DNA of 36,620 bases, taken from a virus. The notes under the pieces were generated by a model, which saw only the letters and a program-made list of their open reading frames with translations, ran no database searches and was not told where the DNA came from. A program made the position numbers and the translations under genes. This document shows positions 3 to 32,731 of this stretch, piece after piece. The DNA lies in IMG/VR virus record IMGVR_UViG_3300037847_002688, positions 13,101-49,720 of that record, one strand, 5' to 3'. The stretch's first letter is position 1, and each line of letters starts with the position of its first letter.

Positions 3-3000
3 ACAACAATTTCACAAGGTCAAACTGGTGTTTTTCTATTCGAGCCAGTATTAAGTGAATTTGGTGCCTCTGGTGATGATATAGTTAACGCAAAAGTTTC
101 AATTTTTGTTAATGAGTTTCTTCCGACTATGGGGACTTTCACCATAGAAAGTATGTCTATATCGTATGTTGAAAGTGTTTCAGGACTTACTGAAGCTTTT
201 TTACAGGATTTACAAAGTAATTTATCTAGCATTCAAGAAGATGTTGAGGCTGTAGATGAGACTGCGGAAATTGTTATAACAGATTTATCTTCTGGTCTTG
301 AGGTTGTTAGTGGGCAAATACAAGAGTATGAAGCTTTGTTGAATCAATTTAATACTTCCTCTTCCTTACTTCAAGCTCAAATACTGGAAGCTGTTGGTGA
401 GCTATCACAAACAAGCACTATAGATCAAGGTTATATTGATGGTGTAACACTTGCTTTTCAAAATAACCAAGCCAACCTTGATGATGATGTAGCTGCTTTA
501 ACTGATTTTACAAATTACATTCAAAATCAAATTGACAATGCAAGTAATTCTGACCCAGGAGAAGGTACGGGTGACACCGACCCAGCACAAGAAGGTGTTT
601 TATTTGAAATAGAGATAGACAGGGTAACTCCTATAATAACCACTAATTCAAGTGATACAACAAATGAGATTATGGAAGATGTTCTAGGCTACCCAAGCTA
701 CTCTTATAGATGGCATCTTTTTTTAACAAACGAAGATCTTTTTCCAGGTGAAAGACATAATTTTGGAGCTTACTGTGATAAAAATCATTTTATTGCTTCT
801 AATAGAACTCGACTTCAAGGTACTTTTGATTTTTGGAATGGTACCGTAGGACTTGATGGACCTCCATTTTTGAAAATTGTAAAAAATGCTATTAAGAGGA
901 GTTACCAGCAAGCTAATAATGTTTCCGAAGCAACTCTTGATCAGTATTTCTCAGGATCTGGAGATAGATATGATCCCGTTACGGGATACCTCTTGAATCC
1001 TGCTTCTTATAGTTTTACTTGTTATTTTTCAGGGGAAAATATACCAGTAATTGTCGACTTTCATAATGTAGATTACACTAATTATGCGACTGAAGTTACT
1101 CTTGATGGAAATCCTAATATATTTAATATTACTTGGGAGGATTTAGCATTAAGTAATTTTGGATTTAGTATTCGTGTTCTAGATAATAGAGGCGGGTGGG
1201 ACATTAAATCAGCAATAGTAATAAACAATGATTATACTGATGCAGTAAAAACTAGTCTATATGATTCAAGTTATAAATTGTTTGATATTGAGCAAATAAG
1301 TGAAGAAACTAGTATTGGTTGGGCAGACGCAACACACATTCGAAATACTTCTGACACAAATTCTGACTCATTAAACATTTCAGGTACAGTAACTAATTAC
1401 AATGCTCAAAGTCGCAGTATACCACAACCACAGCAGTCAGGTACTGTAGAAGGATTTGTTAGGGCAGCATCTTCTGATAACTATAACGCTTACAGCTTAG
1501 ATGTGCCATCAACGATGCCATCTTCAGATTCTGATATTATAGTAAATAAATCTATAGATGAAAAACCTACTATAACAAGGGGTGTTAGAAGATACATTTA
1601 TAACTCAATATTAAATACAGATAGGTCTGTTAGTTTAGCTAGTGAAGACTTTGTTTGTATTGGATCTTATGAAGATAAACCTTTAAGTAGGATATATTAC
1701 TTTGTTCATGACACCTCTGTGGATAATTTTGATTGTATACTAGAGTATGACCTAGCACTAGACAGTATTAAGACTGTATATCAAGATGGTAGAATAGGTT
1801 ATAATGGAGACGTAGAAGCTGTCCTTAACTTTAGTAGATCTAACTTAATTACAGGTGTTAATAAGGTTGACGATATTTTATATTTTACAGACAACCTTAA
1901 CAGACCTAGAAAAATTAATGTTGAGTTAGGTAAAAAGAACGAGGAAAATATACAAAATGCTGTTAGGGTTGAAGATGTATTCTTTCCTGGTGGATTTAAT
2001 AATTCAGCATTTTTATCTTTTGAAGATGAAAAGGTTAGGTCGTTTAAAGTCGGTGATAACGTGTTTTCACAGATTTTTGACGAAAATCAAATTCAATTTA
2101 ATGGTTGGTCTGAAGTTATTGGTATTGTTAGAAGAATATCAAATGATCCTATAACTGGATTTACCTTTAATGTTACTAGTGGTAGTAATACGATTACTGC
2201 TAGTCAATCAATACTTAGTGACAATACTTTGGCTCCAGGAGAGTTTATTGGGATTATGGATAATGATAACTTTCCTAGGTTCTTTAAAGTTATAGATAGA
2301 TCTGGACCTACAATAACAGTTGAATCACCACCTAACTTTACAGCAGCAGAAGCAAAGCCTTTAAATATATTAGTTGGTGAAGGTGAAGATAGTATAGAAA
2401 CATCTATAGGAGGACTACTAACTAACTGTCCTTTTGAGTCTGGTGCTGTAGCTTCAGGTATTTTAATGCAGGCAGATCCTGATGACGCCTACTCACCTTT
2501 AATTAGCTTTGGTAAATATGACGACAAAGTAAAATATTTAGACGCTGTTAAACATCAACCTGAGTTAAGACCTCAGACTGATTTAAGTCTTGACACTTCA
2601 TCTAAAAAGAATAATATATTAGATAATTTGTTTCAGTTTAAATACAGGTACACTCATTACGATAATGAAAACACCTCATACAGTGGAATATCTGACATAA
2701 AACCAGATATGGTATTTTCAAGAAATGTTCCTATAAAAGTTGATGATTATTCTAATATAAAAAACGTTATTGATGTAGAGTATTTTGACACCATATCAGA
2801 TGTTAAAAAAATAGAAATAGTAGCTAGAACAGGAAATGATGGTGAGTTTGTTTTAGTAGATACTGTTCAAAATAACTTTATTACTTATTTGAAGAACATT
2901 AAGAATAGTGTTATATCGGAGCCTGCTTTTTACTTTGACGTACCTAAGTCTATAATTAAGTTTAAGAATAATGGTGTCTATCCTTTTGTAGATAGAGCTG

Positions 3001-6000
3001 ATTCTAACAAACTATTTGACTCTGTTCCTAAGCTTGCTAAAGCACAAACAATGTTATCTAACAATAGAATTGCTTATGGTAACATAGTTGAAGGATTTGA
3101 TAATACACCTATAGTGGTTGAGAGTGAGTTTTTAAATGAAGATAATTCTGTTGTTGAGTCTTTTACTTCAGAAGTGGGTGTGTTTTTTGATACTTCTTCT
3201 GCTTCTGCGGTAACTGATCTAACTGCTGGAAGTGGTAACAATCCTAACAGTGATGCTGACGCAAGTCCTTTAGCTGATGCTATTCAAGGTTCTTCTGGAG
3301 ACTCATCATGGAGTGCTAGTAGTAACGCTTCTTGTGTAGTTAGTTTCTTTATAGACTTATCTGGGATTAGCTTTAATGATTCAAGCTCTCAATTTATAGA
3401 TATAAATTTAGGGTGGGGGATAAAAAGAAGTCCAGAACAATTTGCAAGCCCAATGAAAAGATCTGGTAAGCTTTTAATGAGTGTTGACCTAACAGGTGCG
3501 TCAACAATAAATCAGGTTAGAGAAAGAATTATAGAGGAATTTGATGGTGGTCAGTTTCAAGGAGGAGCTAGTTTAACATCTTCTAATATTGATCAAGCAA
3601 ATCAGTCAGGTTTACTGGATCTTAAACTTACAATATCTGGTGTCAACATGATAAAAGTTAAGTGGATATGTAAACCAAATGATTCTGTTGGAGAAGGGCA
3701 AGGACTTACTTTTGGATGGGAAAATTCTTTTGATGGATTTATTTTAACTAGAACTAAAAATAACGTTGTTTTTACTAGTGGATCTGCTTCATCTAACTCT
3801 TTTAAGAAGGGTGCTTTTCATGATTTTGGTATAGCTTATTTTGACGAGACAAACAGATGTTCTTTTGTAAATGTAGCTCCTAATTTTGGATCTAATATTG
3901 AGCTAAAAGAAGGTTTTGGCGAACCTTCTATTAATGTTAATTTAAATGGTACTAGGTGTTATAATCCTTTTGTTACTGAAGGTGATGTTCTACCTGGTCA
4001 GGTTTCTAGTGTTAGCTTTAATATATACAATAAACCTCCTAAATGGGCAACTCATTATCAAATGCTTTATGCTGGTAACACTTCTGTTGCAGAGTTTGTT
4101 CAAATTACAATAAATGATGTTGTTGCTGGAGGTGGTAACGATACTCAGATGTATTTATCTATAAACTCTTTAAAGGCAGAAAACTTAGGGTACGTAGATT
4201 CTTCTGGTGCTCTTATAGATTTTGATGCTACTAAGGGTGATAGAATTAGATTTATTAGTTGCAAGGTTGGTGATGATAGAAAGTTATTTAAAGATTATTT
4301 AGATTTTGAAATTACAGGATTTGATTTTCACGATGCAGATAACCCAATATCAGACACAGTTAACGGAAGTGGATTTTATATAAGAATTGCAAATCCAGAA
4401 AGTACCTCTATAAATATTGAAGGTGGAGGGCTTGTTGACATAGCCCACTCAGGATCATTTGTTTTAGCTAATACTGGTTATAATGGACTTATAGCTGAGA
4501 TATACAGACCTAGATTAAATCAAGAACAAGAAAACTTGGTTTATTACGAGATTGGTGATAAAATAGAAATTGGAAAACATGGTGAGGTAGATAGATACCA
4601 TAGTGGTCAGGTAAATCAAGTTGCTGAATATTTTTACGACAAAGATGTAAACACAGAGGTTTCTTTAAGTCCTGCTACAGTAACTTTAGATGGTGGAGAT
4701 GTTTATATTAAATTTAGAAGAATGGTTACAAATACATCTGGAGGTAGTGGTACTGGTTTAGGATCAACTATAGAGGCTTTTACTTGTGAAGACTATTTCT
4801 TAAATGATTTTCATAGAACTAACCACTACGACAAAGGTCGTATAAACGTAGTTAACAACAACTCAGAAGAAAGAAGACTTAAAGCTTCTGTATTCTTCTC
4901 TGAGCCTTATGTAAGCACAGGTGCTATAAACGGTTTAAGTAACTTTAACTTAGCAAACACACCTTACTTTGATTATAATAAAGACTTTGGGTCTATTCAA
5001 TATTTAAGTAATCAAAATAACGACTTAATTATATTTCACGAGAGTAAGGTTGGTAGAGTTTTAGTAGGTAAAGATATACTTAACACAGCTTCAGGAGAAG
5101 GTTTAGTTTCTTTATCTAACAAGATTATAGGTGATTATGCTATAGTTTATTCAGGTCAGTATGGTTGTAGTTTAAATCCTGAATCTGTAATAAAACAAGG
5201 TAACGTATTCTATTTTACAGATATACAAAGAGGATCTGTTCTTAGACTATCTAATGATGGTATTACAGTTATATCTGATAATGGTATGAAGGATTACTTT
5301 AGAGACCTGGGTGAAATGTTCTTAAAGTATAATCCAGAGTACAATGACGATTTAGAGTTTACTCCTTCTATTGTTGGTGGTTATGATCCTAAATATAATG
5401 AGTATATAGTTACATTCCCTTCAATAATTAGCAATCCAGACTCTGGTTACACAAGTGAAACTTATGTTTGGAGTGATAGCATCGCTACTTGGGATGAGAT
5501 AACAACTAAACCTGAAAACGCTTTTGATGATAAGGTTGTTATATTTAACCCTGTTACTGTAGCATTTAGTGAAGAGTCAAATAGATGGACATCTTTCTAC
5601 TCTTATATTCCTGAGTATTACTCTAAAGTTAATAGACAGTTTGTTACCTTCAAGCAAGGTAGATTATACAGACATAACGATTCAGATAAATACTCTAGAA
5701 GTACTCAATCGTATAATAAGTTTTATGGTAATAACAACCTATCATATATTGACTTTGTATTTAACGCAGAACCTTCATCTATTAAGACTTATAACGCTTT
5801 AGCTTTAGAGAGTGATACAAAATTTATTACAGGTTTATTCTCTAATATGGGTCAGCACTATGGTGGTTATGATGAAGTTATAACTACAAACATTGCTTTC
5901 AAAAAAGTTAGAGGTAAGTGTAGTAATGTTTCGGTTGCTTCTGCTTTTGAAATACAAGGTATAGACACTAAATTTTATGAAGACGTATCTCCAGGTGATT

Positions 6001-6809
6001 TAATTAAAGTTATTGGAAACTCATCTGAAGAACAACACATAGTATCTAAAGTAATATCAAATACCTTAATAGAGGTTGAAGAGGAGGTAAGTCTGACTTT
6101 AAATAATAACACCATGTTAGTTATTGATTATAAAACCAAGGAGGGTATACAATATGCTGATATTCCGTTCTGCACATCTGATATAGAGTCTAGGGAAGAT
6201 AACCTTAATTTTGGTGACGGATCAGATATACAGGGTGTTGGTGTAGTTTCAGGTTTAGATGATGATGGAGAAAACTTGTCTATACTTACAAAACTAACAA
6301 CACTTGCAAATCTTAACAAACAGATACCACCAAGTGATATGGTTAATGGAGCAAGATATGTTGTAACATACATAGCTGAAGGGGAAGAAGATTTAATTGG
6401 TGCTTCTGACTCATCTTACGATCCTGATGAATCATCTATAGGTAACATTATAATACATAATGGTGTATCTTCAGCTACAGATAGTTTAGTTATGAGTGCC
6501 GATCTTAGATTGTACATTAAAAAACTTGATGGAACAACTGAATTTTTAGGATACCCATACTCGATAACTTCTGGTACTTTTAATGAAGAAAGTGCAACTA
6601 AAATACGTATTGCTGGAAGTTATGCTTATGACTCTAGTTTTGATGGAGGCTTTTTATTCATGACTAAAACGGGTTCTATAGAGGGTGAGAGAATGAAGGG
6701 TAGCTATATGAGGGCTATATTAGCCACTAACTCTAATCAGTCTAAAAAGAAGTTTAATCTTTACGCTGCAAACGCAGACGTAGACAAGAGTGAGCTTAGT
6801 AATAAATAA
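3..6809 (+). CDS. Giant virion protein, tail/stabilisation-like (5' end outside window)
   Basis: The frame is open from base 3, so the gene starts upstream of the window; the first in-window ATG at 129 is internal. At least 2268 residues remain. The N-terminal part (about 180-540) is a long heptad-like stretch rich in Gln, Leu and Asp that reads as coiled coil. The middle (about 1600-1950) has alternating beta-type blocks such as YYFVHD, LITGVNKVDD and YFTDNLNRPRKINV. Further on come NNRIAYGNIVEGFDN (about 3060-3105), YGCSLNPESV (about 5160), FYFTDIQRGSVLRLS (about 5209-5253) and FYGNNNLSYIDFVFN (about 5720-5765). I associate this pattern with the very large gp10-like or stabilisation proteins of crAss-like and other Bacteroidota phages, which form part of the tail hub. 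It is first in a co-directional block with three other virion genes. The virion role is well supported; the exact position in the tail is inference. Confidence 0.72.
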   Translation, partial: TTISQGQTGVFLFEPVLSEFGASGDDIVNAKVSIFVNEFLPTMGTFTIESMSISYVESVSGLTEAFLQDLQSNLSSIQEDVEAVDETAEIVITDLSSGLEVVSGQIQEYEALLNQFNTSSSLLQAQILEAVGELSQTSTIDQGYIDGVTLAFQNNQANLDDDVAALTDFTNYIQNQIDNASNSDPGEGTGDTDPAQEGVLFEIEIDRVTPIITTNSSDTTNEIMEDVLGYPSYSYRWHLFLTNEDLFPGERHNFGAYCDKNHFIASNRTRLQGTFDFWNGTVGLDGPPFLKIVKNAIKRSYQQANNVSEATLDQYFSGSGDRYDPVTGYLLNPASYSFTCYFSGENIPVIVDFHNVDYTNYATEVTLDGNPNIFNITWEDLALSNFGFSIRVLDNRGGWDIKSAIVINNDYTDAVKTSLYDSSYKLFDIEQISEETSIGWADATHIRNTSDTNSDSLNISGTVTNYNAQSRSIPQPQQSGTVEGFVRAASSDNYNAYSLDVPSTMPSSDSDIIVNKSIDEKPTITRGVRRYIYNSILNTDRSVSLASEDFVCIGSYEDKPLSRIYYFVHDTSVDNFDCILEYDLALDSIKTVYQDGRIGYNGDVEAVLNFSRSNLITGVNKVDDILYFTDNLNRPRKINVELGKKNEENIQNAVRVEDVFFPGGFNNSAFLSFEDEKVRSFKVGDNVFSQIFDENQIQFNGWSEVIGIVRRISNDPITGFTFNVTSGSNTITASQSILSDNTLAPGEFIGIMDNDNFPRFFKVIDRSGPTITVESPPNFTAAEAKPLNILVGEGEDSIETSIGGLLTNCPFESGAVASGILMQADPDDAYSPLISFGKYDDKVKYLDAVKHQPELRPQTDLSLDTSSKKNNILDNLFQFKYRYTHYDNENTSYSGISDIKPDMVFSRNVPIKVDDYSNIKNVIDVEYFDTISDVKKIEIVARTGNDGEFVLVDTVQNNFITYLKNIKNSVISEPAFYFDVPKSIIKFKNNGVYPFVDRADSNKLFDSVPKLAKAQTMLSNNRIAYGNIVEGFDNTPIVVESEFLNEDNSVVESFTSEVGVFFDTSSASAVTDLTAGSGNNPNSDADASPLADAIQGSSGDSSWSASSNASCVVSFFIDLSGISFNDSSSQFIDINLGWGIKRSPEQFASPMKRSGKLLMSVDLTGASTINQVRERIIEEFDGGQFQGGASLTSSNIDQANQSGLLDLKLTISGVNMIKVKWICKPNDSVGEGQGLTFGWENSFDGFILTRTKNNVVFTSGSASSNSFKKGAFHDFGIAYFDETNRCSFVNVAPNFGSNIELKEGFGEPSINVNLNGTRCYNPFVTEGDVLPGQVSSVSFNIYNKPPKWATHYQMLYAGNTSVAEFVQITINDVVAGGGNDTQMYLSINSLKAENLGYVDSSGALIDFDATKGDRIRFISCKVGDDRKLFKDYLDFEITGFDFHDADNPISDTVNGSGFYIRIANPESTSINIEGGGLVDIAHSGSFVLANTGYNGLIAEIYRPRLNQEQENLVYYEIGDKIEIGKHGEVDRYHSGQVNQVAEYFYDKDVNTEVSLSPATVTLDGGDVYIKFRRMVTNTSGGSGTGLGSTIEAFTCEDYFLNDFHRTNHYDKGRINVVNNNSEERRLKASVFFSEPYVSTGAINGLSNFNLANTPYFDYNKDFGSIQYLSNQNNDLIIFHESKVGRVLVGKDILNTASGEGLVSLSNKIIGDYAIVYSGQYGCSLNPESVIKQGNVFYFTDIQRGSVLRLSNDGITVISDNGMKDYFRDLGEMFLKYNPEYNDDLEFTPSIVGGYDPKYNEYIVTFPSIISNPDSGYTSETYVWSDSIATWDEITTKPENAFDDKVVIFNPVTVAFSEESNRWTSFYSYIPEYYSKVNRQFVTFKQGRLYRHNDSDKYSRSTQSYNKFYGNNNLSYIDFVFNAEPSSIKTYNALALESDTKFITGLFSNMGQHYGGYDEVITTNIAFKKVRGKCSNVSVASAFEIQGIDTKFYEDVSPGDLIKVIGNSSEEQHIVSKVISNTLIEVEEEVSLTLNNNTMLVIDYKTKEGIQYADIPFCTSDIESREDNLNFGDGSDIQGVGVVSGLDDDGENLSILTKLTTLANLNKQIPPSDMVNGARYVVTYIAEGEEDLIGASDSSYDPDESSIGNIIIHNGVSSATDSLVMSADLRLYIKKLDGTTEFLGYPYSITSGTFNEESATKIRIAGSYAYDSSFDGGFLFMTKTGSIEGERMKGSYMRAILATNSNQSKKKFNLYAANADVDKSELSNK

Positions 6810-9603: not shown

Positions 9604-12600
9604 ATGGATAAGTTAGAACAACTTTACAACCTTTATGTAGACAAAGGTATATTAACATCACAAACAACTTTAGACCAGTTTAAGGATTCTGATGTTGACA
9701 TACAAAGTAAGCTTTACGACTTAGGAAAAAATAAAGGTTTGTTCAATACAACAGACCTTAATACTTTTCAGTCAGCTTGGGGTGATGTAAAAAAAAAAGA
9801 TTCTTCAGCATTTCAAAACGCAATTTCTCAAAAGACTACAGAGGATTCTGTATTGGAATCGGAGCCTTCAACTTCTTCTTCGGAGTACATAGAGTCTCTA
9901 AATGAAAGCATAAGAAAAAGACGACTATCTTCAGAGCAAGGTCAAGACGCATTAGATTTAGAGAGAGAATCAAAAAGACCTTTTTACGAAGGTCAAGGTG
10001 TTGACATAAATAAGGTTCTTGATGCTGAGTTTGTTAAAAGTCAAGATGCAGAAAAAAAAGAACAAGAGCTTGAACAAGAAAAAGATCTTGGATTTTTTAG
10101 TAAGCTTTACAAAAGAATAACAGACACCTCAGATCTAGAGAAAGATTACTTTACCACAGACGAAGATGTAGCTGATGAATTTTTAGCTAAAAACTCAGAC
10201 AAAATATTTGAGGCTGAAAAGCAATTTCATAACGCACAAATAAAAGACGTTATGGATAACATTGCTCCAGAATCTAGAATGGAGCAGATAGAAGCTAGAG
10301 GTATTGATTTATCTTACATGCCCGTAGATAATATAAAAGTTAATAACGAAAGTGTAAGTGTTAACGAACTTCAAAAAAACTTATTTAACACAGACTTTGT
10401 AAACGATGTTATTGACGGTAAAACTAATGTTACTATTGATAATCCTGATAATGACGAAGGACTAAAAACTCTTCAAGATTTACTTGAAAGACAAGTCGAG
10501 TCTGGTGGGTTTATTGGTGATTGGGCAGAAGGTTTTGCTGCTGGTGCTTTAGATTTGTTAGTAGCAGGTCCTCTTGAAATAGCTGAGGGATTACTGATAG
10601 GTGGTGCTAACAGTAATTACGAACAAATAATGTACAACACCAGAGGTGGTAAGTTTGCAAGTAAAGTTAAAAAAGCTGCAGATAAAATAAGAGAGAGAAC
10701 TAGATTGTATCAGGAAGATGGTATGACAAGCTCAATACTAAAAGGAAACTTTCTTGATGCTTTTAAACAAGGTGGTAGTGCTATAGCAGAGACAATGCCT
10801 TTAATATTTAGTATGTACGCATCTAGTCCTGCTTTAGCTACAAAGTTTGGACCAAAGGCTGCTCAAAATATATCTTTAGGGGCTATAGGTTTGTCAACTG
10901 CTGGGGTTCAATCTTTAAGCTTGAAAGAGCAAAGAATGAAGGGTGAAATAGATGTTAACAATTTTGCATTATATGCTAACGCTGCTTTAACTGGTGCTGC
11001 TGAAGCTGTCTTTGAAAAAACCACGTTAGATTTAGTTAATGATGCCAGAGCACTAATCGGTAGAGGAAAAGTAAAACAAAGTGCTAAAGAAATAGCGGAT
11101 AACATTACAGATGGTTTCTTTGCTAAAGGTATACAAGAGGGTGGTGCTGAATTTAAAACTGAGGTATCTAACACCATAACAAATATGATAACTGGTGTAG
11201 ATAAAAACCCAGAGGATGTATTGGTTAGACTATCTGACTCTTTCCTTATTGGTTTTGCTATGGGTGGTGGTATACATAGTGCAGGATATTTAGCTAAAGC
11301 TTTTACAGATGCAGATTATAAAAAGCTTAACGACAATATAGTTGTTAACTTTATAATGGAGGATAAGTCTACTAAACAAATGAATAGAGCTGAAGCCTTA
11401 AGGTTTGTAAAGACTGAAGGTGTGGGTCAACAGATTAGAGATGGTAAGATAAAGATGGATGCTTCTATGAATGCTGAGGCTCAATCTTTACTAGATGAAC
11501 TTGTATTTGGATTCTACGCACCTGATGCTGCTGAGGCTAGAGGATTAATGCAGGAGAAAGAGAAGGTTGTTAATGATATGTTAAACGTCTTAGATTCAAA
11601 GAAAAAGTCAGACATATCTATAGATGAAATATCAGCTTTAAATGATGCTGTTAGTCAGATGGAGGCTGAGGGTAAGAAGTCTAAATACAACGTCACAGAT
11701 AGAACTGAAAGTGTAAGAGTAAGACTTAAATCTATATTAAATGATAAGGGTATTCAGGTTATAGATCCTATGACTAGTCAAGATACTAGTGGATCTAATA
11801 TAACTGAATCAGTAGAAGCTACAGAGATAACTACTGAGGAACAGTATAATAGCGTTAAGGATCAAATATCAAAAGACAGAAAGAAACCTGTTATAGTAAC
11901 TTCACAGGATAAATCTGGCATTATATTTAATAACAATAAAGCTGAAACTTCTAATATAACCACTGCTAAGTTTAATAACGTATCTGATGCTAGAAACGCA
12001 TTGAAAGATTACGAAGCTAAAATGTCTGAGGGTGTAAGTAAAGAGGATTTATTCAAAGCTAATAATAAATTATTTATAAAGACACCTAAAGATAATCTTG
12101 ATCAGATACCTCAAGATGTTATTGATAGTAATGATTATCATATATTAACTTCAGAAAGAGAGGGCGTAACTGATGGTGAAAAGGCAGCTAGGATGGAAAA
12201 CCTTAAAGCTGTATTGGATGAAGCTGGTGCTACATACTACACAGTTCAGGGTGTTTATAATAACGTTTCAGAGGAAAGTCTTTTGGTTACAGGTTTAAAT
12301 GATGCCTCAGCTTTAAATATAGGTAACCAGTTTCAACAAGAATCTGTTTTTTCCTCTAAGACTGGTCTCATGTATAATGATGGTAGAGTTGTGCCTTTAG
12401 ATCCTAAAAAAGATACAAAAGGTCCTGATGCTAGAAAGCAAGATACTTTAACAATTATAAATGTAAACGGAAGAAAAGCATCAATACATTCAGGGTTGAA
12501 CTTTGAAAAAACTAGTTATGGTAAAAACTTCAATTCAGATAATGTACATAAACTTGATGAGAGTAATCCTAAATATGATTCAGATTTATTTGAAGGTGTT

Positions 12601-15600
12601 AGTGAGGCAAGAAAAGAAGCTTTAGGCTTTGCACTTAAGCTACTTAACTCTATAGGTAATCTTAATGTTACTATTGTTAAAAATAGTAACGCAATGGCTG
12701 AACAATTAAAGTCTATAGGTCAAGATCCATCTAAGAGTAGATCATCTTTCTTTAGAGGTGCTGACAAGACTATATATGTAAACCTTGAAACTGTTCGTGG
12801 AAATACTTTATTTCATGAGATTATTCACCCTATGGTTGACTTCATTAAGAAGACTGACCCTTCCTTATACAAAAGAATAGAATCTGAAGTTAAGGAAAGT
12901 AACATGAAAAGACGTGTTATAAAGGATGGTCGTAGAGTGAAGGGTTCTTACCTTGATTGGGCTAAATCAAACTATGAAGGCCTTTCTGAGGAGGCACTAA
13001 TAGAAGAAGCTTTTGCTGAGATGATGGGTGACGCTGCCTATGGTCACTTTGTAAACAAACAGTCTAAGCTAACAAAGATTAGAGAAGTTATAAGAGCTAT
13101 ACTAGAGAGACTAAATATAGTATCTCCAGTAGAAAATGTTGAGTCTATAGATTTACAACAAATGTCTCTAAAAGACTTGGCTGATAACTTATCTGGTGCT
13201 TTAGTAAATGGTAGAAAAATTAATGTTGGTGGAGTTCAATTTGAAGTAGGTGAAACTGAAATAAAAGAAGGAGATGAAACTATAAGAGAGCAATCAATTC
13301 AGCCTTCTAAAAAAACTGGAAAAGCTTTTGAGCAGTTTTTCTCTGACGTTACTGCTGGTAGATATGGTTTCTCTAACGTTAAGTACGAACCTTATATAGA
13401 TATAAAAAGAGAAGATAGAATAGAATTTATAGAGGAATACGTCAAGCACAGAGGTAACTTCGATGATCACATAGCTAAGAGTATACCTGGACATAAAGAG
13501 ATACAAGTAATAACTGGTACTGCTATAACAAATTTATTTAAAAACAAAAAAGCTTCTGTTTTAGATATTGGTGGATCTGAAAACTCATGGGCTAAAGCTA
13601 TTTCTGGAGTTAGTGAGGGTAAAATAAAAACAACAACGTTAGATCCTAATCCAGAGATGAAAAAATTCTCTGACAATAAGAGTTCCGTTGATGGAAATGA
13701 ATATATACCAGAGGCTTTTATGGAGGGTTACGATAATATTAAGGCTTACGATCCTGATAAAAAGTTTGACGTTGTACATGAATCAATGGTGTTCCAGTTT
13801 ATAAACGACAATAGAGCACCTCAAATAAAATATATTAAAGATAATCTTTTAGGTAAGGATGGTTTATTAATTGTTGAGGAAAAGTTTTTTACAGAAAATT
13901 ACGAAAGTAATGAAGAGGTAAAAGACAGATATAAAGAGAAGTATTTTACAAAAGAAGAATTAGCCAATAAAAAGAAAAGGGTTTTAAATAAAGAAGGTGA
14001 TGCTGCTGAGGGTATGGAGTCTAACATGATTAAAGAGTCTAGTATGATAAAAATACTAAAAGACAACTTTAAAAATGTTAAAGAGTATTGGAGCTCTGGC
14101 AACTTTAAAGGCTATGTTGCATCAAATAATAGTAATTTAGTAAACGATTTTGTAGAAGACTCAAGTTATTCTTTAAGAGAACAGGTTGCGAAACCAGAAG
14201 ATGAGACTGTTGTATACACTTCAGGATTAGGTAATTTAATATTTGATGTGTCTCAATCTGTTATAGATTTAGATTATAAACTTGGAGAATGGCTTCAAAA
14301 TGTTCCTGGATACACAAGATTGACAGGGGAAAAAGAAATAGACGCTAGGCTATCTACACTACTATTAAAACCTAAAGGAACTCACACCAATAAAGAAATA
14401 AAAGAGTTGATGACTCTTAGAAAGGGTGATGTAGCTTTAGAGCTTCACAGGGCTAACGAGATAATGAAAAGGTTTGCTGATATTAATAAAGAATATCAGA
14501 TGTCTGACGCTGAATTAAATGATATTCTTGGTGACGTAAATAAAATAAAAGCCATGGAGTCTGATAAAAGCGACATGAAGGGTATACTAATGGAGATGAG
14601 AAGACATATTGACTCACTTAGTAGAACACTTATAGATGAGGGGTTAATAAGAGGTCAAGCATCTTTTGCTGTAGAAGCTAATGGAGGTTTTTATATAACC
14701 AGATCTTACAAGCAGTTTGAAAACAAGAGCTGGAAACAAACAGATACTGATATACAACAAAGAGCTAAAGATTTTTTGTATCAGGAAGTTAAAAAAGAAA
14801 ATCCTGATTTATCAGAATCTGAAATAAAATCTAAATCACTTAAAATTTATAATAGGTTAATAAAAAAGGGAGACTTTTCTAAATACTCATCTGCTAATGT
14901 ATCTTTTGATGGATTAACTAGAGTCAACTCAATATTTAAAAAGAGAAAAATTGTTCCTCAAGAGATAAGAGATTTATGGGGTGAGATAGATAATCCTGTG
15001 TTTAACTATAATAACACAATATCTAAAATATCAAGAACGGTGGCCGCTGAAAGAATGTATAAAGATCTTTTAGATATTGGTCAAGGTAAATTTATATTTG
15101 ACGATATTGTTGAGGGTGTAGCTGAGAACGAGTTAACTGAAAGTAAGTTTGGTTTATTGGAGGGTAAGTTTGTAGATAACGAAATGTTTAACGTTCTAAA
15201 CAGATTTGAAGAGAAGGTGAGCTATCCTTGGTGGTTAAGCATTTACATGGAGTCTATACTTCTTAACAAGAAAGCTAAAACAGTTTGGAACTTACCTACT
15301 CACTTTATTAATTTGATAGGTAACACTTCTTTTGCTTTAATGAATGGTCATGTTAGCTTTAAAAACTCTAAGTATTTTGCTACAGAAGCCATAAAGTCTG
15401 TAAGTAATATGACTGATCCTCAAGTGAAAGAGTTTAGAGAAAAGCTAATAAAGCTTAGAGTTATAGATAACTCAGCAACACTTAGTGAGATACAATCCAT
15501 AACTGAGCAGGTTAAAAATAGCAACTTCAGTATATCAGAGTATATTAAAAACAAAGACTTTACAAAAAAAGGAGCTATAGGTTATTTAAGTAAGATAGGT

Positions 15601-16866
15601 AAAAAACTTGACAACTGGGCTACAGATGCTTATCAAGCTGAGGATAACGTATGGAAAGCTTACGGCTTCTTGTCTGAAAGAGCTAGATACTTAGAGGCTG
15701 GATTTTCTGTTGAAGATGCTGAGGCTACTGCAGCTAAGAATGTAAGAAACTTATACCCAAACTATAACGAGATACCTAGAATAATAAGAACAATAGGTAG
15801 ATCTCCTGTGGTTGGTTCTTTTGTTGCTTTTCAGGCTGAGTCTGTTCGTAACGCTAAAAATGCAATAATGCTTGGGTTTGAAGAAATATCTAGTGATAAT
15901 CCAGTACTTAAAAAGTCAGGTGTGGCAAGACTATCTGGAACTTTAGCAACGTTTACTCTTCTTCAAAGCATGCAGTTGTATACAGCTAAATTCTTCATGG
16001 AGTCTTTCTTTGGAGAGGACGAGGATGACGAGCAATTTGAAACTAGAAAGATAAGAACTGTTTTACCAAGCTGGGATGCTAAAGGATTATTATCCTATAC
16101 TGAAAAAGGTGAGTTAGAATCTAGATATTCTAAAGGTCAAAAATACAAGGACAGATATATAGATTACATAAACTTCTCTAGAGTGTCTGGTGTGGGTTAT
16201 ATAAAAGACTTATTTAGATTAGCCTTTACAGATATTAAAACGGAACCTGGAAAGGAAAGCTTTATGAGAATTTTGGAGGCTGTTTTTGAGCCATTTTTAA
16301 GTGAAGAAATGACTTTAACTTTATTTCAAGATGCTTATAATAATAAGGGAGGAAAAGTTTATAATGAAACTGATGACAGACTAACGAAGATTTTCAAAAG
16401 TATAGAGTTTGTAGGTAAGGGAATTGCTCCAGGAACACTTAGAACTGGTGTTAGAATACGTGAATCATTATTTGAAGAGGACTCTGAACTCGTCCCAGCT
16501 TATGAAATATTAGCAATATTTGGATTAAGAGTAAATAGAATAAACGTAAACAAGAGTATTTACTTTAGATCTAGATACGCTAATAAAAAACTTATCGATA
16601 TAGTAGGTAAAGATGTTATGAAAGATGAGAGTAAGTTAAGAGGATTCATAACCAAAGGATCTGAAGATTACGACTCAAGAGCAGATGAAGTATTAAATAA
16701 GTTTGCTGATATAATTAGTGCCGCTAGATTAAATAATATAGCAGGTGAAGACATAAGACAAATACTAATAAAAGCTGGAATGAGTAATCTTTTAATATCT
16801 ATAGCTGAGAAAAGAGGTATTGATAGATACCATCAAGACAACATAAATATATTAAAAGACGAATAA
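9604..16866 (+). CDS. Giant polyvalent virion protein with metallopeptidase motif and methyltransferase-like domain
   Basis: 2420 residues. The N-terminus (1-75) has two short helical repeats of the type LYNLYVDKGILT. Hydrophobic helical stretches lie at about 303-335 and 390-445. A small domain at about 860-925 ends FQQESVF and resembles the DUF3293-like module seen in such proteins. HEIIH at 1071-1075, with a helix containing EEAFAE at 1134-1139, fits a zincin metallopeptidase. LDIGGSE (1320-1326), TLDPN (1345-1349) and FDVVHESMVFQF (1388-1399) fit motifs I, II and IV of a Rossmann-fold SAM-dependent methyltransferase. The C-terminal part has KKAKTVWNLPTHFINLIGN (about 1890) and a block from AYQAEDNVWKAYGF to PVVGSFVAFQAESVRNAKN (about 2008-2086). 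This block is typical of large polyvalent or ejected phage proteins. The protein is probably packaged and injected with the DNA. Catalytic activity is inferred from motifs; substrates are unknown. Confidence 0.78.
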   Translation: MDKLEQLYNLYVDKGILTSQTTLDQFKDSDVDIQSKLYDLGKNKGLFNTTDLNTFQSAWGDVKKKDSSAFQNAISQKTTEDSVLESEPSTSSSEYIESLNESIRKRRLSSEQGQDALDLERESKRPFYEGQGVDINKVLDAEFVKSQDAEKKEQELEQEKDLGFFSKLYKRITDTSDLEKDYFTTDEDVADEFLAKNSDKIFEAEKQFHNAQIKDVMDNIAPESRMEQIEARGIDLSYMPVDNIKVNNESVSVNELQKNLFNTDFVNDVIDGKTNVTIDNPDNDEGLKTLQDLLERQVESGGFIGDWAEGFAAGALDLLVAGPLEIAEGLLIGGANSNYEQIMYNTRGGKFASKVKKAADKIRERTRLYQEDGMTSSILKGNFLDAFKQGGSAIAETMPLIFSMYASSPALATKFGPKAAQNISLGAIGLSTAGVQSLSLKEQRMKGEIDVNNFALYANAALTGAAEAVFEKTTLDLVNDARALIGRGKVKQSAKEIADNITDGFFAKGIQEGGAEFKTEVSNTITNMITGVDKNPEDVLVRLSDSFLIGFAMGGGIHSAGYLAKAFTDADYKKLNDNIVVNFIMEDKSTKQMNRAEALRFVKTEGVGQQIRDGKIKMDASMNAEAQSLLDELVFGFYAPDAAEARGLMQEKEKVVNDMLNVLDSKKKSDISIDEISALNDAVSQMEAEGKKSKYNVTDRTESVRVRLKSILNDKGIQVIDPMTSQDTSGSNITESVEATEITTEEQYNSVKDQISKDRKKPVIVTSQDKSGIIFNNNKAETSNITTAKFNNVSDARNALKDYEAKMSEGVSKEDLFKANNKLFIKTPKDNLDQIPQDVIDSNDYHILTSEREGVTDGEKAARMENLKAVLDEAGATYYTVQGVYNNVSEESLLVTGLNDASALNIGNQFQQESVFSSKTGLMYNDGRVVPLDPKKDTKGPDARKQDTLTIINVNGRKASIHSGLNFEKTSYGKNFNSDNVHKLDESNPKYDSDLFEGVSEARKEALGFALKLLNSIGNLNVTIVKNSNAMAEQLKSIGQDPSKSRSSFFRGADKTIYVNLETVRGNTLFHEIIHPMVDFIKKTDPSLYKRIESEVKESNMKRRVIKDGRRVKGSYLDWAKSNYEGLSEEALIEEAFAEMMGDAAYGHFVNKQSKLTKIREVIRAILERLNIVSPVENVESIDLQQMSLKDLADNLSGALVNGRKINVGGVQFEVGETEIKEGDETIREQSIQPSKKTGKAFEQFFSDVTAGRYGFSNVKYEPYIDIKREDRIEFIEEYVKHRGNFDDHIAKSIPGHKEIQVITGTAITNLFKNKKASVLDIGGSENSWAKAISGVSEGKIKTTTLDPNPEMKKFSDNKSSVDGNEYIPEAFMEGYDNIKAYDPDKKFDVVHESMVFQFINDNRAPQIKYIKDNLLGKDGLLIVEEKFFTENYESNEEVKDRYKEKYFTKEELANKKKRVLNKEGDAAEGMESNMIKESSMIKILKDNFKNVKEYWSSGNFKGYVASNNSNLVNDFVEDSSYSLREQVAKPEDETVVYTSGLGNLIFDVSQSVIDLDYKLGEWLQNVPGYTRLTGEKEIDARLSTLLLKPKGTHTNKEIKELMTLRKGDVALELHRANEIMKRFADINKEYQMSDAELNDILGDVNKIKAMESDKSDMKGILMEMRRHIDSLSRTLIDEGLIRGQASFAVEANGGFYITRSYKQFENKSWKQTDTDIQQRAKDFLYQEVKKENPDLSESEIKSKSLKIYNRLIKKGDFSKYSSANVSFDGLTRVNSIFKKRKIVPQEIRDLWGEIDNPVFNYNNTISKISRTVAAERMYKDLLDIGQGKFIFDDIVEGVAENELTESKFGLLEGKFVDNEMFNVLNRFEEKVSYPWWLSIYMESILLNKKAKTVWNLPTHFINLIGNTSFALMNGHVSFKNSKYFATEAIKSVSNMTDPQVKEFREKLIKLRVIDNSATLSEIQSITEQVKNSNFSISEYIKNKDFTKKGAIGYLSKIGKKLDNWATDAYQAEDNVWKAYGFLSERARYLEAGFSVEDAEATAAKNVRNLYPNYNEIPRIIRTIGRSPVVGSFVAFQAESVRNAKNAIMLGFEEISSDNPVLKKSGVARLSGTLATFTLLQSMQLYTAKFFMESFFGEDEDDEQFETRKIRTVLPSWDAKGLLSYTEKGELESRYSKGQKYKDRYIDYINFSRVSGVGYIKDLFRLAFTDIKTEPGKESFMRILEAVFEPFLSEEMTLTLFQDAYNNKGGKVYNETDDRLTKIFKSIEFVGKGIAPGTLRTGVRIRESLFEEDSELVPAYEILAIFGLRVNRINVNKSIYFRSRYANKKLIDIVGKDVMKDESKLRGFITKGSEDYDSRADEVLNKFADIISAARLNNIAGEDIRQILIKAGMSNLLISIAEKRGIDRYHQDNINILKDE

Positions 16867-30749: not shown

Positions 30750-30905
30750 CTATTTGTTTAAATTTTCTAATTGTTTTATTGCTAAAGATACTTTTTGAAT
30801 TTTATCAAAATCGCCACTCATTTGATAATGTATTTTAATGTTTCTTAAAGATGCAATTTGTTCTTTTACGACTGCATCAACATTTGTGAATAAACATTCT
30901 TTCAT
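30750..30905 (-). CDS. Small helical protein, 51 residues
   Basis: ATG 30905 opens 51 codons (MKECLFTNVDAVVKEQIASL...LAIKQLENLNK), helical. It is the first gene after the large non-coding island and carries the conserved leader (ACAATAGAAACT). Function unknown. Confidence 0.52.
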   Translation of the reverse strand: MKECLFTNVDAVVKEQIASLRNIKIHYQMSGDFDKIQKVSLAIKQLENLNK

Positions 30906-30982
30906 AGTTTCTATTGTTTAGGTTATTGATTTGTTTCTTCTACTCAGCTTTTATGCAGACTTGTAACTGCCTTAGGTAGCTT

Positions 30983-31580
30983 TAAAAGATGGGGGAAACT
31001 TCCCCCACCAAATCAAAAGGAGTTTGTGTGTTGTCATTAATCACGCCTTAACACACAAAGGCGTGGTGTCTATCTTGCTTCAGACTAACTGCCACTTAGT
31101 CTCACACCTATCAACACACTGCTACATTACTCAGTGCGTATCATCGGTGTCCCCTCTGATAGACTTCCCATATTAATCGGTACGGACTTTTTACGTCCCC
31201 TATGGTGCTTTACCTAACTTGTAGTGATAGCCTATTGGTCTATCCAAGCCCACTTGGTTATCGGCAGTGGTTTCCGTTCAGTTGATTCGATACTGACAAA
31301 CGCTGATTGAATTATTGCTCTAATACACTTGGGTAGGCAATGCTACTGCTATGTATCGTTACTAAGACTTACAACCTTAAATCAAGCTAAAGGTCTATTA
31401 CTGATGTGCTACCTCAACAACCCTTTGATGCTATCTCTCGTGGGAACTTGGTAGTCAAACTCTTGCTTACTAACCTATTGATACTTGAGAGGATATGCTC
31501 AACTGCTCTTGTATCGGCTTCCTGCGTTATAGCGAGTTTGAATCAGTATGTAAAGAACGGCAACGATTATGAATCATTGT
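30983..31580 (-). ncRNA. Large structured non-coding RNA candidate (~600 nt)
   Basis: No convincing ORF lies between 30906 and 31600. GC is about 42% by hand count (31021-31560) against about 30% in sampled neighbouring lines. Leftward transcription would start about 7 nt after the -7 box at 31586. Visible stems include CACTG/CAGTG inside CTATCA/TGATAG (31108-31162), AGACTAA (31082-31088) with TTAGTCT (31096-31102), CCAAG/CTTGG near 31244-31257, TTGAG/CTCAA near 31485-31502, ATTGC/GCAAT near 31314-31341, and the pseudoknot listed below. A GC hairpin TGGGGGA/TCCCCCA (30990-31007) followed by TCTTTT ends it. It may be a free RNA or a long leader of the early operon. Confidence 0.6.
31023..31065 (-). 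other. H-type pseudoknot in the large RNA candidate
   Basis: CACGCCTT (31042-31049) and AAGGCGTG (31058-31065) form a perfect 8-bp stem. The loop between them, AACACACA (31050-31057), is exactly complementary to TGTGTGTT (31025-31032); the match extends to TTTGTGTGTT with AACACACAAA. Both pairings can coexist, with at most a two-base trade at the junction, as in a classical pseudoknot. Confidence 0.7.
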
Positions 31581-31585
31581 TGGCA

Positions 31586-31618
31586 CAAATATACGAATAA
31601 AAAACAATACATGTCAAA
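31586..31618 (-). promoter_or_regulatory. Leftward early promoter (TTTG, 21 nt, TATATTTG)
   Basis: Read leftward: TTTG (rc of 31615-31618), 21 nt, TATATTTG (rc of 31586-31593). It drives the large RNA candidate and probably the small-gene cluster. AAATTATTTTACAT at 31616-31629 overlaps the -33 element and is identical to 14 nt at the 24.6-kb promoter. Confidence 0.72.
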
Positions 31619-31629
31619 TTATTTTACAT

Positions 31630-32043
31630 CAAATATTAGAACAAATATTATAAATGTACTGGTAGCAAGGGGTTGAGAGGGTAAACTTTTTTTTGTGTTG
31701 TTTGTATATCTTGGGGTTGGTGTGTTTATTGGGGAGATTACACCACCTCTCTCCACTGCTTTCTATATAATAGTAACTGCGATGCACTCCATTTAAGGTA
31801 TCTTAGGGACGATGTAAAGCAAAGTTTCGGCATCTTATTATATATATGTAGGATAGTTAGAGATAGTTAGTGCGATGAACTGAAAATAGAAACGACATTT
31901 GTATTATGTACGCACGATTTTAGTTTGAGTACCCCGTTTGCGGATTTTGGTTTCGGTGTGCGCGTGTCGGGTCGTATATACATATATAACCCCCAACCTT
32001 TTCCTTTCTCAAAAAATTTTGTACATTGCAAAAAATTTATATT
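31630..32043. other. Divergent control region, ~410 nt, no gene seen
   Basis: It separates the leftward early block from the rightward small-gene set. It holds a GGGGAGA/TCTCTCC hairpin near 31731-31754, a direct repeat GATAGTTAG/AGATAGTTAG (31852-31870), a GC-rich alternating patch (GGTGTGCGCGTGTCGGGTCG, about 31955-31974), then an AT-rich palindromic tract TATATACATATATA. This could hold promoters or an origin. A candidate rightward promoter is TTTG (31898-31901), 19 nt, TAGTTTG (31921-31927), one base short of consensus. No iterons were found. Confidence 0.45.
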
Positions 32044-32217
32044 ATGGCTAGATCGGTAAGAAAAACAAAAAGTATTCGTGCACCTCAGGGTTTTCATTGG
32101 ATGCGTAAGGGTGTAAATCAATATAAGTTGATGAGACATAAAGGTGCTTTTGTACCTCACCCTGGTGCTAGCCTTACAGCCAAGTTTGAAATACAAGAAC
32201 AGCACAAGAATGCCTAG
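32044..32217 (+). CDS. Conserved small basic protein, 57 residues
   Basis: Start at 32044 (MARSVRKTKSIRAPQGFHWM). The pattern GFHWMRKG...YKLMRHKGAFVPHPGAS...AKFEIQEQH looks like a conserved short family in Bacteroidota phages; function unknown, possibly virion-associated. It overlaps the next gene by 8 nt (ATGCCTAG). Confidence 0.62.
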   Translation: MARSVRKTKSIRAPQGFHWMRKGVNQYKLMRHKGAFVPHPGASLTAKFEIQEQHKNA

Positions 32218-32503
32218 AGCTGTTAAACGAGATCCAAAAGTCGGTACTGGTAAAAAGCCAAAAGGTTCTGGTAGACGACTATATACAGACGAGAATCCTA
32301 AAGACACTGTTAGTATTAAGTTTGCTACTCCTTCAGACGCAAGATCGACTGTTGCAAAAGTAAAACGTATTAGTAAACCATATGCTAGAAAGATACAGAT
32401 ATTGACTGTAGGTGAGCAGCGTGCTAAGGTCATGGGTAAAAATGAAGTTGCTGGTATATTTAAGCGTGGTAAAGAATCTATAAGAAGAAGTAGAAATGCC
32501 TAA
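32210..32503 (+). CDS. Conserved basic protein, 97 residues
   Basis: Start at 32210 (MPRAVKRDPKVGTGKKPKGS), overlapping the upstream stop by 8 nt; a longer frame to 32144 would run inside the upstream gene. KKPKGSGRRLYTDENPKDT and a Lys/Arg-rich C-terminus (VAGIFKRGKESIRRSRN) stand out. I recall similar GSGRRLYTDENPKDT proteins in marine phages, without function. It may bind nucleic acid. Confidence 0.62.
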   Translation: MPRAVKRDPKVGTGKKPKGSGRRLYTDENPKDTVSIKFATPSDARSTVAKVKRISKPYARKIQILTVGEQRAKVMGKNEVAGIFKRGKESIRRSRNA

Positions 32504-32609
32504 GGCTTTAAAAAAAAAGTTATACAAAAGAGCAAAGAAGAAGTTCCCTAAAGACAAGAAGCTTCAGGACAGGTATGTATATGGAACTTTAAATAAAATC
32601 AAGAAATAA
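32496..32609 (+). CDS. Very basic small protein, 37 residues
   Basis: Begins MPKALKKKLYKRAKKKFPKD and ends GTLNKIKK; Lys makes up a large share. It overlaps the upstream gene by 8 nt (ATGCCTAA) and shares TAATG with the next one. Function unknown; nucleic-acid binding plausible from charge. Confidence 0.58.
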   Translation: MPKALKKKLYKRAKKKFPKDKKLQDRYVYGTLNKIKK

Positions 32610-32731
32610 TGTTTGGAAGTATTTACAGTATGATATACAATGTGTTTTGGATTGACGATGAGTTATGTGTTGTTGTGTGTCAAGATACTTTTGGTAACGT
32701 AATTAGTATATCATCTAGCGATGAGTATTAA
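32609..32731 (+). CDS. Small acidic protein, 40 residues
   Basis: ATG shares one base with the upstream TAA. The product (MFGSIYSMIYNVFWIDDELC...GNVISISSSDEY) is strand-like with hydrophobic and acidic parts. It overlaps the HNH gene by 11 nt. Placement supports a real gene; function unknown. Confidence 0.5.
   Translation: MFGSIYSMIYNVFWIDDELCVVVCQDTFGNVISISSSDEY

Follow-up and report, generated by a model that had tools for sequence, protein, structure and literature searches.

A boxA-bearing structured RNA with a predicted twister ribozyme appears to head the early transcript of marine Bacteroidota phages

The early operon and its gene-free head

The analyzed window of 36,620 nucleotides corresponds to bases 13101-49720 of a 49,720-bp IMG/VR virus record. 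Its early genes form a long run on the minus strand (Table 1), which encodes a DnaB helicase, an Erf annealing protein and an exonuclease. A gap of more than 1.1 kb separates the first early ORF from the first gene on the plus strand (at about 32044). In this gap the original prediction had placed a gene-free and GC-rich structured RNA at 30983-31580, coordinates which agree with the RNA described here to about 6 nt at both ends. The absence of genes was borne out, as the RNA strand carries no listed ORF of at least 40 aa between 30984 and 31586. The raised GC content was found as well, with 41-42% at 30901-31500 compared to 28% just downstream and approximately 33-36% elsewhere. A protein frame under conservation was searched for in the homologues. 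No conserved reading frame was found across the alignment of A-type RNAs (see below), and a protein-coding explanation was therefore rejected. The locus seems to encode a structured non-coding RNA which is about 600 nt long and opens the early mRNA in marine Bacteroidota phages, apparently a new class of large phage RNA.

The consensus promoter noted earlier at the upstream end is real in form. TTTG-N21-TATATTTG represents the Bacteroidota -33/-7 pattern, for which the window contains 5 sites with 1.2 expected by chance. A sigma-70 match of 11/12 is located at the same place, and the promoter is kept in most homologues. Judging from this pattern, transcription is expected to start near 31580.

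Several other features of the window were recorded. Two giant virion proteins of 2226 and 2420 aa are encoded on the plus strand (129-6809 and 9604-16866) and have PHROG matches in the category “head and packaging”. The 2226-aa protein contains a crAssvirus muzzle C-terminal domain (PF25729, E 5e-7), so that the phage may be distantly crAss-like. The 2420-aa protein contains a weak methyltransferase-like stretch. Three small Lys/Arg-rich proteins are encoded in a row at 32044-32610 (+) and are also present in L099 and L004.

Table 1. Features of the predicted RNA and its surroundings (window positions, unless a locus is named)
Feature	Position	Strand	Basis
Early genes (many, small)	~30.9 kb down to 17.2 kb	-	ORF list and protein matches
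First early ORF, 51 aa	30750..30905	-	ORF list; ATG at 30905
Predicted non-coding RNA	31586-30984	-	under Bacteroidota promoter, heading early operon
Bacteroidota-type early promoter, TTTG (31618-31615), 21 nt, TATATTTG (31593-31586)	31586..31618	-	pattern search
5' hairpin CAACAAUGAUUCAUAAUCGUUG, boxB-like position	31561..31582	-	kept while sequence changes
boxA antitermination element CGUUCUUUACAUACUG	31544..31559	-	match to host rRNA boxA; directly after 5' hairpin
Domain D1, swappable module closed by UACUGAU/AUCAGUA	31399..31548	-	compensatory changes in closing and inner helices
Domain D2 (A-type), multi-helix, two pseudoknots (one proposed)	31009..31398	-	covariation; covariance model
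H-type pseudoknot, stem CACGCC/GGCGUG, loop UUGUGUGUU pairing with AACACACAA	31024..31065	-	covaries
3' hairpin directly 5' of predicted cut	30991..31006	-	hairpin kept with unrelated sequences, short or long form
Predicted twister ribozyme, type P1	30988-30937	-	Rfam RF03160 match; covariation; predicted cut at U30984/A30983 junction
Likely tRNA-like element, T-arm AGUGGUUCGAUUCCACU, acceptor GGGAAU/AUUCCC, ~110 nt between	L099:3391-3541		by inspection

Fold, covariation and module exchange of the RNA body

Relatives were identified in IMG/VR by the Erf protein and by DNA patterns taken from the RNA. The A-type alignment consists of 11 distinct RNAs (window, L088, L089, L011, L007, L087, L091, L084, L086, L092 and L099), and over the aligned columns the window shares 70-87% identity with the ten other RNAs. 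Pattern hits in L095, L096 and L097 (190 kb, 45 kb and 268 kb) were rejected as chance matches without the RNA. Among INPHARED phages no relative of the region was found at the DNA level.

Folding of the single sequence gave z = -2.3 for the minus strand and -2.0 for the plus strand, which is only moderately better than shuffles, and the claim of a fold is therefore based on comparison. For the A-type alignment, RNAalifold yielded -203.9 kcal/mol compared to -133.8 ± 6.0 after column shuffling (z = -11.8), and 53 compensatory pairs compared to 14.8 ± 4.1 in shuffled alignments. This control refolds every null and is thus without selection by eye. The RNA strand of the alignment also folds better than the antisense strand. 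In addition, a structure with 122 pairs was named by hand; it contains two pseudoknots, and its pairs are 93.9% canonical. Double-sided changes occur in 40 of these pairs and in 4-9 when the partners are slid, a control which somewhat favours the structure because it was partly picked by eye from the same alignment; 40 was reached in 0 of 500 shuffles. A second alignment gave a like result. Examples of such helix changes are CCACU/AGUGG to CCAUC/GAUGG, UCAGU/ACUGA to CAAGU/ACUUG, and the series CUAUC/GAUAG to CUAAC/GUUAG to CUACC/GGUAG. The proposed check for compensatory changes thus succeeded at the level of the whole structure but not for individual pairs, as an R-scape-like test with tree-simulated nulls revealed no single significant pair. 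With 11 sequences this test is underpowered, and therefore the structure-level tests were used. The nested stems seen originally, for which single-sequence evidence is weak alone, are confirmed by the comparison, and as comparative sequence evidence we regard the covariation of the fold as decisive.

The RNA body is divided into two domains. The closing helix of D1 is compensated in L007 to UACUU/AAGUA. D2 contains a highly conserved core (31165-31312) in which about 100 of 146 positions are invariant, many of them unpaired. By analogy, this is as in partner-binding RNAs or in RNAs with defined tertiary folds. A covariance model of D2 (R1) matches RNA-bearing phage loci only, and under stricter filters it gave no match in 399 Flavobacteriaceae genomes, a set without a positive control. 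One pseudoknot, as had been suspected, was confirmed by covariation. Its stem changes from CACGCC/GGCGUG to CACGCA/UGCGUG and its loop from GUGUG to GUAUG with matching partners, and the pair UUGUGUGUU/AACACACAA becomes UUGUAUGUU/AACAUACAA across the relatives. A second pseudoknot (GGUA/UACC with CCAUA/UAUGG) is invariant across the alignment; it is proposed but not supported.

Five relatives (L083, L085, L090, L094 and L040) carry B-type RNAs, which share both ends with the A-type RNAs and have a different second domain. D1 is present alongside this domain in L083, L085 and L040 and absent from L090. L040 and L090 have the 5' hairpin, the B core and the twister in common and are distinguished by D1, which is cleanly inserted at boxA. 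L083 represents D1 of L084 joined to a B core. A further B-type leader was found in L100 and L101, phages which share just a few early proteins with 31-64% identity. As far as these sequences tell, the RNA body is modular, with central domains exchanged between fixed ends. For L101 (733-881), the DUF2693 RNA motif (Rfam RF02956) could be weakly aligned to the B-type leader. The first 20 nt of the motif (GAUCUUUGACAUACUUGAUA) resemble the boxA start of the leader (E 0.96) and the overall match is without significance; the motif may contain a Bacteroidota boxA.

For comparison with known families, the 1.25-kb region 30850-32100 was searched with the covariance models of Rfam, including GOLLD and ROOL, and neither was found up to E 10. 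In six relatives, searched up to E 1, the hits were the twister and two chance matches to mir-924, again without GOLLD or ROOL. Further hits to GNAS-AS1_3, snoRNAs and SNORD73 were rejected as chance matches, and no Rfam family matches the RNA body, so that GOLLD, ROOL and the others were rejected as its identity. GOLLD and ROOL are often, but not obligatorily, located near a phage tRNA island; no tRNA genes were found in the window or in 25 related loci. A further feature of the two families is assembly into a symmetric RNA multimer, or nanocage. ROOL and GOLLD are 600-800 nt long, encoded by phages or prophages, ornate with pseudoknots, non-essential where tested and of unknown function, and in GOLLD the 3' part is conserved and the 5' part variable (PMC12286853). 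The resemblance to the RNA described here is loose, as that between large, ornate and accessory phage RNAs with pseudoknots. Unlike ROOL and GOLLD, this RNA is located at the head of the early transcript, has boxA at its start and a predicted ribozyme at its end, and exchanges whole central domains. Despite the similar size, a divergent GOLLD or ROOL RNA, one branch of the original prediction, is thus extremely improbable in view of the missing model match, the lack of nearby tRNA genes and the different anatomy. The other branch, a new class in Bacteroidota, is supported by the strong covariation, the lack of a coding frame and the conservation across related phages.

The two ends: boxA and the predicted ribozyme

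The stem of the 5' hairpin is CAAC/GUUG in the window and AGCAGU..ACUGCU in L087, L091 and L086. In nearly every RNA-bearing phage boxA lies immediately 3' of this hairpin. It reads CGUUCAUUGACAUAUUG in the B-type relatives. The reference string CGTTCNTTGACATATTG was scanned against GTDB genomes and occurs in at least 119 stretches, the great majority of them from Bacteroidota. In at least 30 of the 80 loci that were fetched, the 3' end of 16S lies within 3 kb upstream, which places these loci in the 16S-23S spacer, and some of them show a 23S start motif 66-209 nt downstream. By its genomic position, CGTTCNTTGACATATTG is a Bacteroidota 16S-23S spacer element, namely the host rRNA boxA. The window copy CGUUCUUUACAUACUG departs from it in a small number of positions; exact matches are found in the B-type copies of L040, L090 and L100. 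The B module comes with a separate boxA in L040, L083, L085 and L094, so that boxA occurs twice in these RNAs (for L083 and L094 as judged by eye). At eight GTDB loci from Bacteroidales (L112, L113, L114, L122, L127, L167, L168 and L169) the string CGTTCTTTGACATATTGGTTTACACG was observed and no 16S was found upstream, a recurring boxA-like context in this order.

BoxA is the NusB-S10 site which protects rRNA (PMC10250234), and in the form GTTCTTTAAAA it helps long untranslated CRISPR arrays (PMC7862264). Here, too, a host-type boxA string precedes a long untranslated RNA (compare PMC10250234, PMC7862264), and the hairpin in front of it resembles the order boxB-boxA of rRNA. In contrast to the rRNA and CRISPR examples, the element is located within a phage early transcript and before an RNA unrelated to rRNA. 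One conceivable role is a decoy, in which the freed RNA would bind NusB-S10 in trans and lower host rRNA antitermination during takeover. It would fit a host-type boxA on an RNA predicted to be released and the two boxA copies in some relatives. The double boxA, however, follows simply from module insertion at boxA, and the ornate and highly conserved D2 is left unexplained; we consider this role very improbable.

At the other end, Rfam model RF03160 (twister-P1) matched at a permissive threshold with 44.3 bits (E 9.4e-7 over the whole window; gathering score 67.2), over the full model length and with no broken pair. The same model matches L040, L088, L094 and L092. P1, P2, P4 and the T2 pseudoknot are 100% canonical in 11 distinct sequences, with a compensatory change in every helix. 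Two haplotypes differ by A-U to U-A in P2, CA/UG to UC/GA in P4 and UAC/GUA to UGC/GCA in T2. Besides these elements, the candidate shares with type P1 twisters the UAA at the cut site and the core motifs CAAG and AUAAA(A)GC.GAG. It differs from RF03160 by the missing P3 hairpin and by a score below the gathering threshold, and its T1 is short with about two pairs by eye. Our own covariance model of the twister (R2) detected 18 loci on 16 contigs at E < 1e-18, and in 16 phage contigs the twister follows the RNA body. L100 has a divergent twister after the B core with all pairs formed (16 bits, E 0.0013 when 1 kb was searched without filters); in the first scan it reached E 0.98 over 764 kb, and Rfam's own best match there is weak. 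The twister pattern is absent from GTDB contigs, where host or prophage copies were looked for. Self-cleavage by this element is likely. According to the known twister mechanism, the cut would separate the RNA from the early mRNA, whose first ORF begins 31 nt past the ribozyme. Unlike a stand-alone twister, it would serve to release a large non-coding RNA at the 3' end. Together with boxA and the fold, this gives the anatomy of a cassette, in which we have high confidence.

The 3' hairpin in front of the predicted cut is always present in the relatives, with a length between 16 nt and about 65-75 nt and unrelated sequence. In the window, 31006-30984 reads as the GC hairpin GGGGGAAGUUUCCCCC followed by AUCUUUU, whereas most homologues have just CCCUUUAA or CCUUUAA at the U-run site. 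The GC hairpin with TCTTTT described earlier is therefore present, but its reading as a terminator is doubtful, since the run is just four Us long and makes up the 5' strand of ribozyme P1. An ordinary terminated leader or sRNA, stopping at this hairpin with the twister as a relic, would be in line with the terminator-like hairpin called at 31006-30992. It is improbable, because the U-run is no longer than UUUU in the window and UUU in most relatives, all ribozyme pairs are kept with compensatory changes, and the early genes would need a promoter past the terminator, where none is evident.

L099, on a contig shared with L015, has the same RNA body and 3' hairpin and no twister. Directly after CUCUUUAC, it continues with GGGAAU...AGUGGUUCGAUUCCACU-AAUUCCCA, which corresponds to a canonical T-arm and acceptor stem. 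The T-arm gave a partial match to the tmRNA profile (E 0.46), the acceptor stem was derived from folding, and ARAGORN called no tRNA or tmRNA on L099. The element is likely tRNA-like with a putative RNase P site. Cleavage by RNase P would be expected at the 5' end of this element, almost at the same place as that by the ribozyme. Since a tRNA-like element replaces the twister at this place, processing of the 3' end seems to be selected, with differing means. If this reading is right, maturation of the RNA 3' end is what selection keeps.

Cassette-free relatives and proposed role of the RNA

The relatives L004 and L005, whose Erf protein is 98% identical, have the same upstream region leading straight to the first gene, with neither RNA nor boxA. 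L034 and L078 likewise lack the cassette and show nothing more than short gaps at the head of the operon. The RNA therefore appears to be accessory, and early transcription seems to be independent of the cassette. The cassette-free relatives argue against a purely cis-acting antitermination and for a boxA which serves the RNA itself.

We infer from the comparisons that the RNA is expressed, cleaved and active in trans in the following way. RNA polymerase would start near 31580 on the minus strand, and the 5' hairpin and boxA would recruit the host NusB-S10 antitermination machinery. As in rRNA, antitermination would keep Rho from stopping the polymerase on its way through the long stretch, which is structured and untranslated. 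D1 and D2 would fold during transcription, and the twister would then cut at U30984|A30983. The 5' product would be a free RNA of about 597 nt with the hairpin at its 3' end and an expected 2',3'-cyclic phosphate. The 3' product would be the early mRNA with the ribozyme as 5' UTR and an expected 5'-OH, and would contain the first early ORF. During early infection the freed RNA would most likely act in trans, either by binding a host factor or as a scaffold, and would be useful but dispensable. We consider this boxA-protected, ribozyme-released and probably trans-acting RNA to be fairly probable as a whole. The action in trans is slightly favoured, as cleavage by the ribozyme would detach the RNA from the mRNA and as relatives without the RNA lack boxA as well. 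The constant position at the head of the early operon also suits a role in cis and speaks against it. No complementarity of the RNA to host rRNA or phage genes above that of shuffles was found.

Structured RNAs with antitermination signals are known to head phage early transcripts, as in the put RNA of HK022 and the nut sites of lambda. The RNA described here resembles them in carrying antitermination-type signals at the same position. A cis-acting leader for processive antitermination, nut-like or HK022 put-like, is a rather unlikely alternative. Its boxA-anchored domains would modify the polymerase for the 13-kb early operon, and the ribozyme would merely trim the mRNA. It agrees with boxA and hairpin at the very start, with the position always at the head of a long early operon and with a boxA at the beginning of every B-type module. 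However, L004, L005 and L034 have an early operon without boxA or RNA, the 600-nt body with its large conserved core exceeds the needs of boxA, and the ribozyme would detach the leader. In contrast to put and nut, the RNA is much longer, is predicted to be cut from the mRNA, is missing in some relatives, and no phage antiterminator gene was identified. The long structured leader considered in the original prediction is thus right in that the RNA heads the early transcript, but the prediction missed the 5' boxA and the twister predicted to detach the RNA.

If boxA served readthrough only, an own boxA on each central B-type module would be odd. A more specific reading of the trans-acting RNA is that the boxA front and the ribozyme back act as a release cassette for swapped, unrelated structured domains of a modular large phage RNA. 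We propose it tentatively, as a nearly even possibility. If true, phages would exchange RNA “effectors” like accessory genes. To our knowledge, little has been established about what twister ribozymes do naturally in bacteria and phages, and the same holds for ROOL, GOLLD and other large phage RNAs. Here the twister has an evident job, the predicted release of a large RNA from the early mRNA, and its pairing with boxA suggests a way for a phage to produce a long RNA that is not translated. In a literature search covering few subscription journals, no description of such a boxA-RNA-ribozyme cassette was found. The module swaps and the RNA-less relatives provide ready natural controls. Upstream of the RNA promoter, between the divergent operons, the stretch 31640-32040 is conserved even in the RNA-less L004 and L005 (85% over 89 nt).
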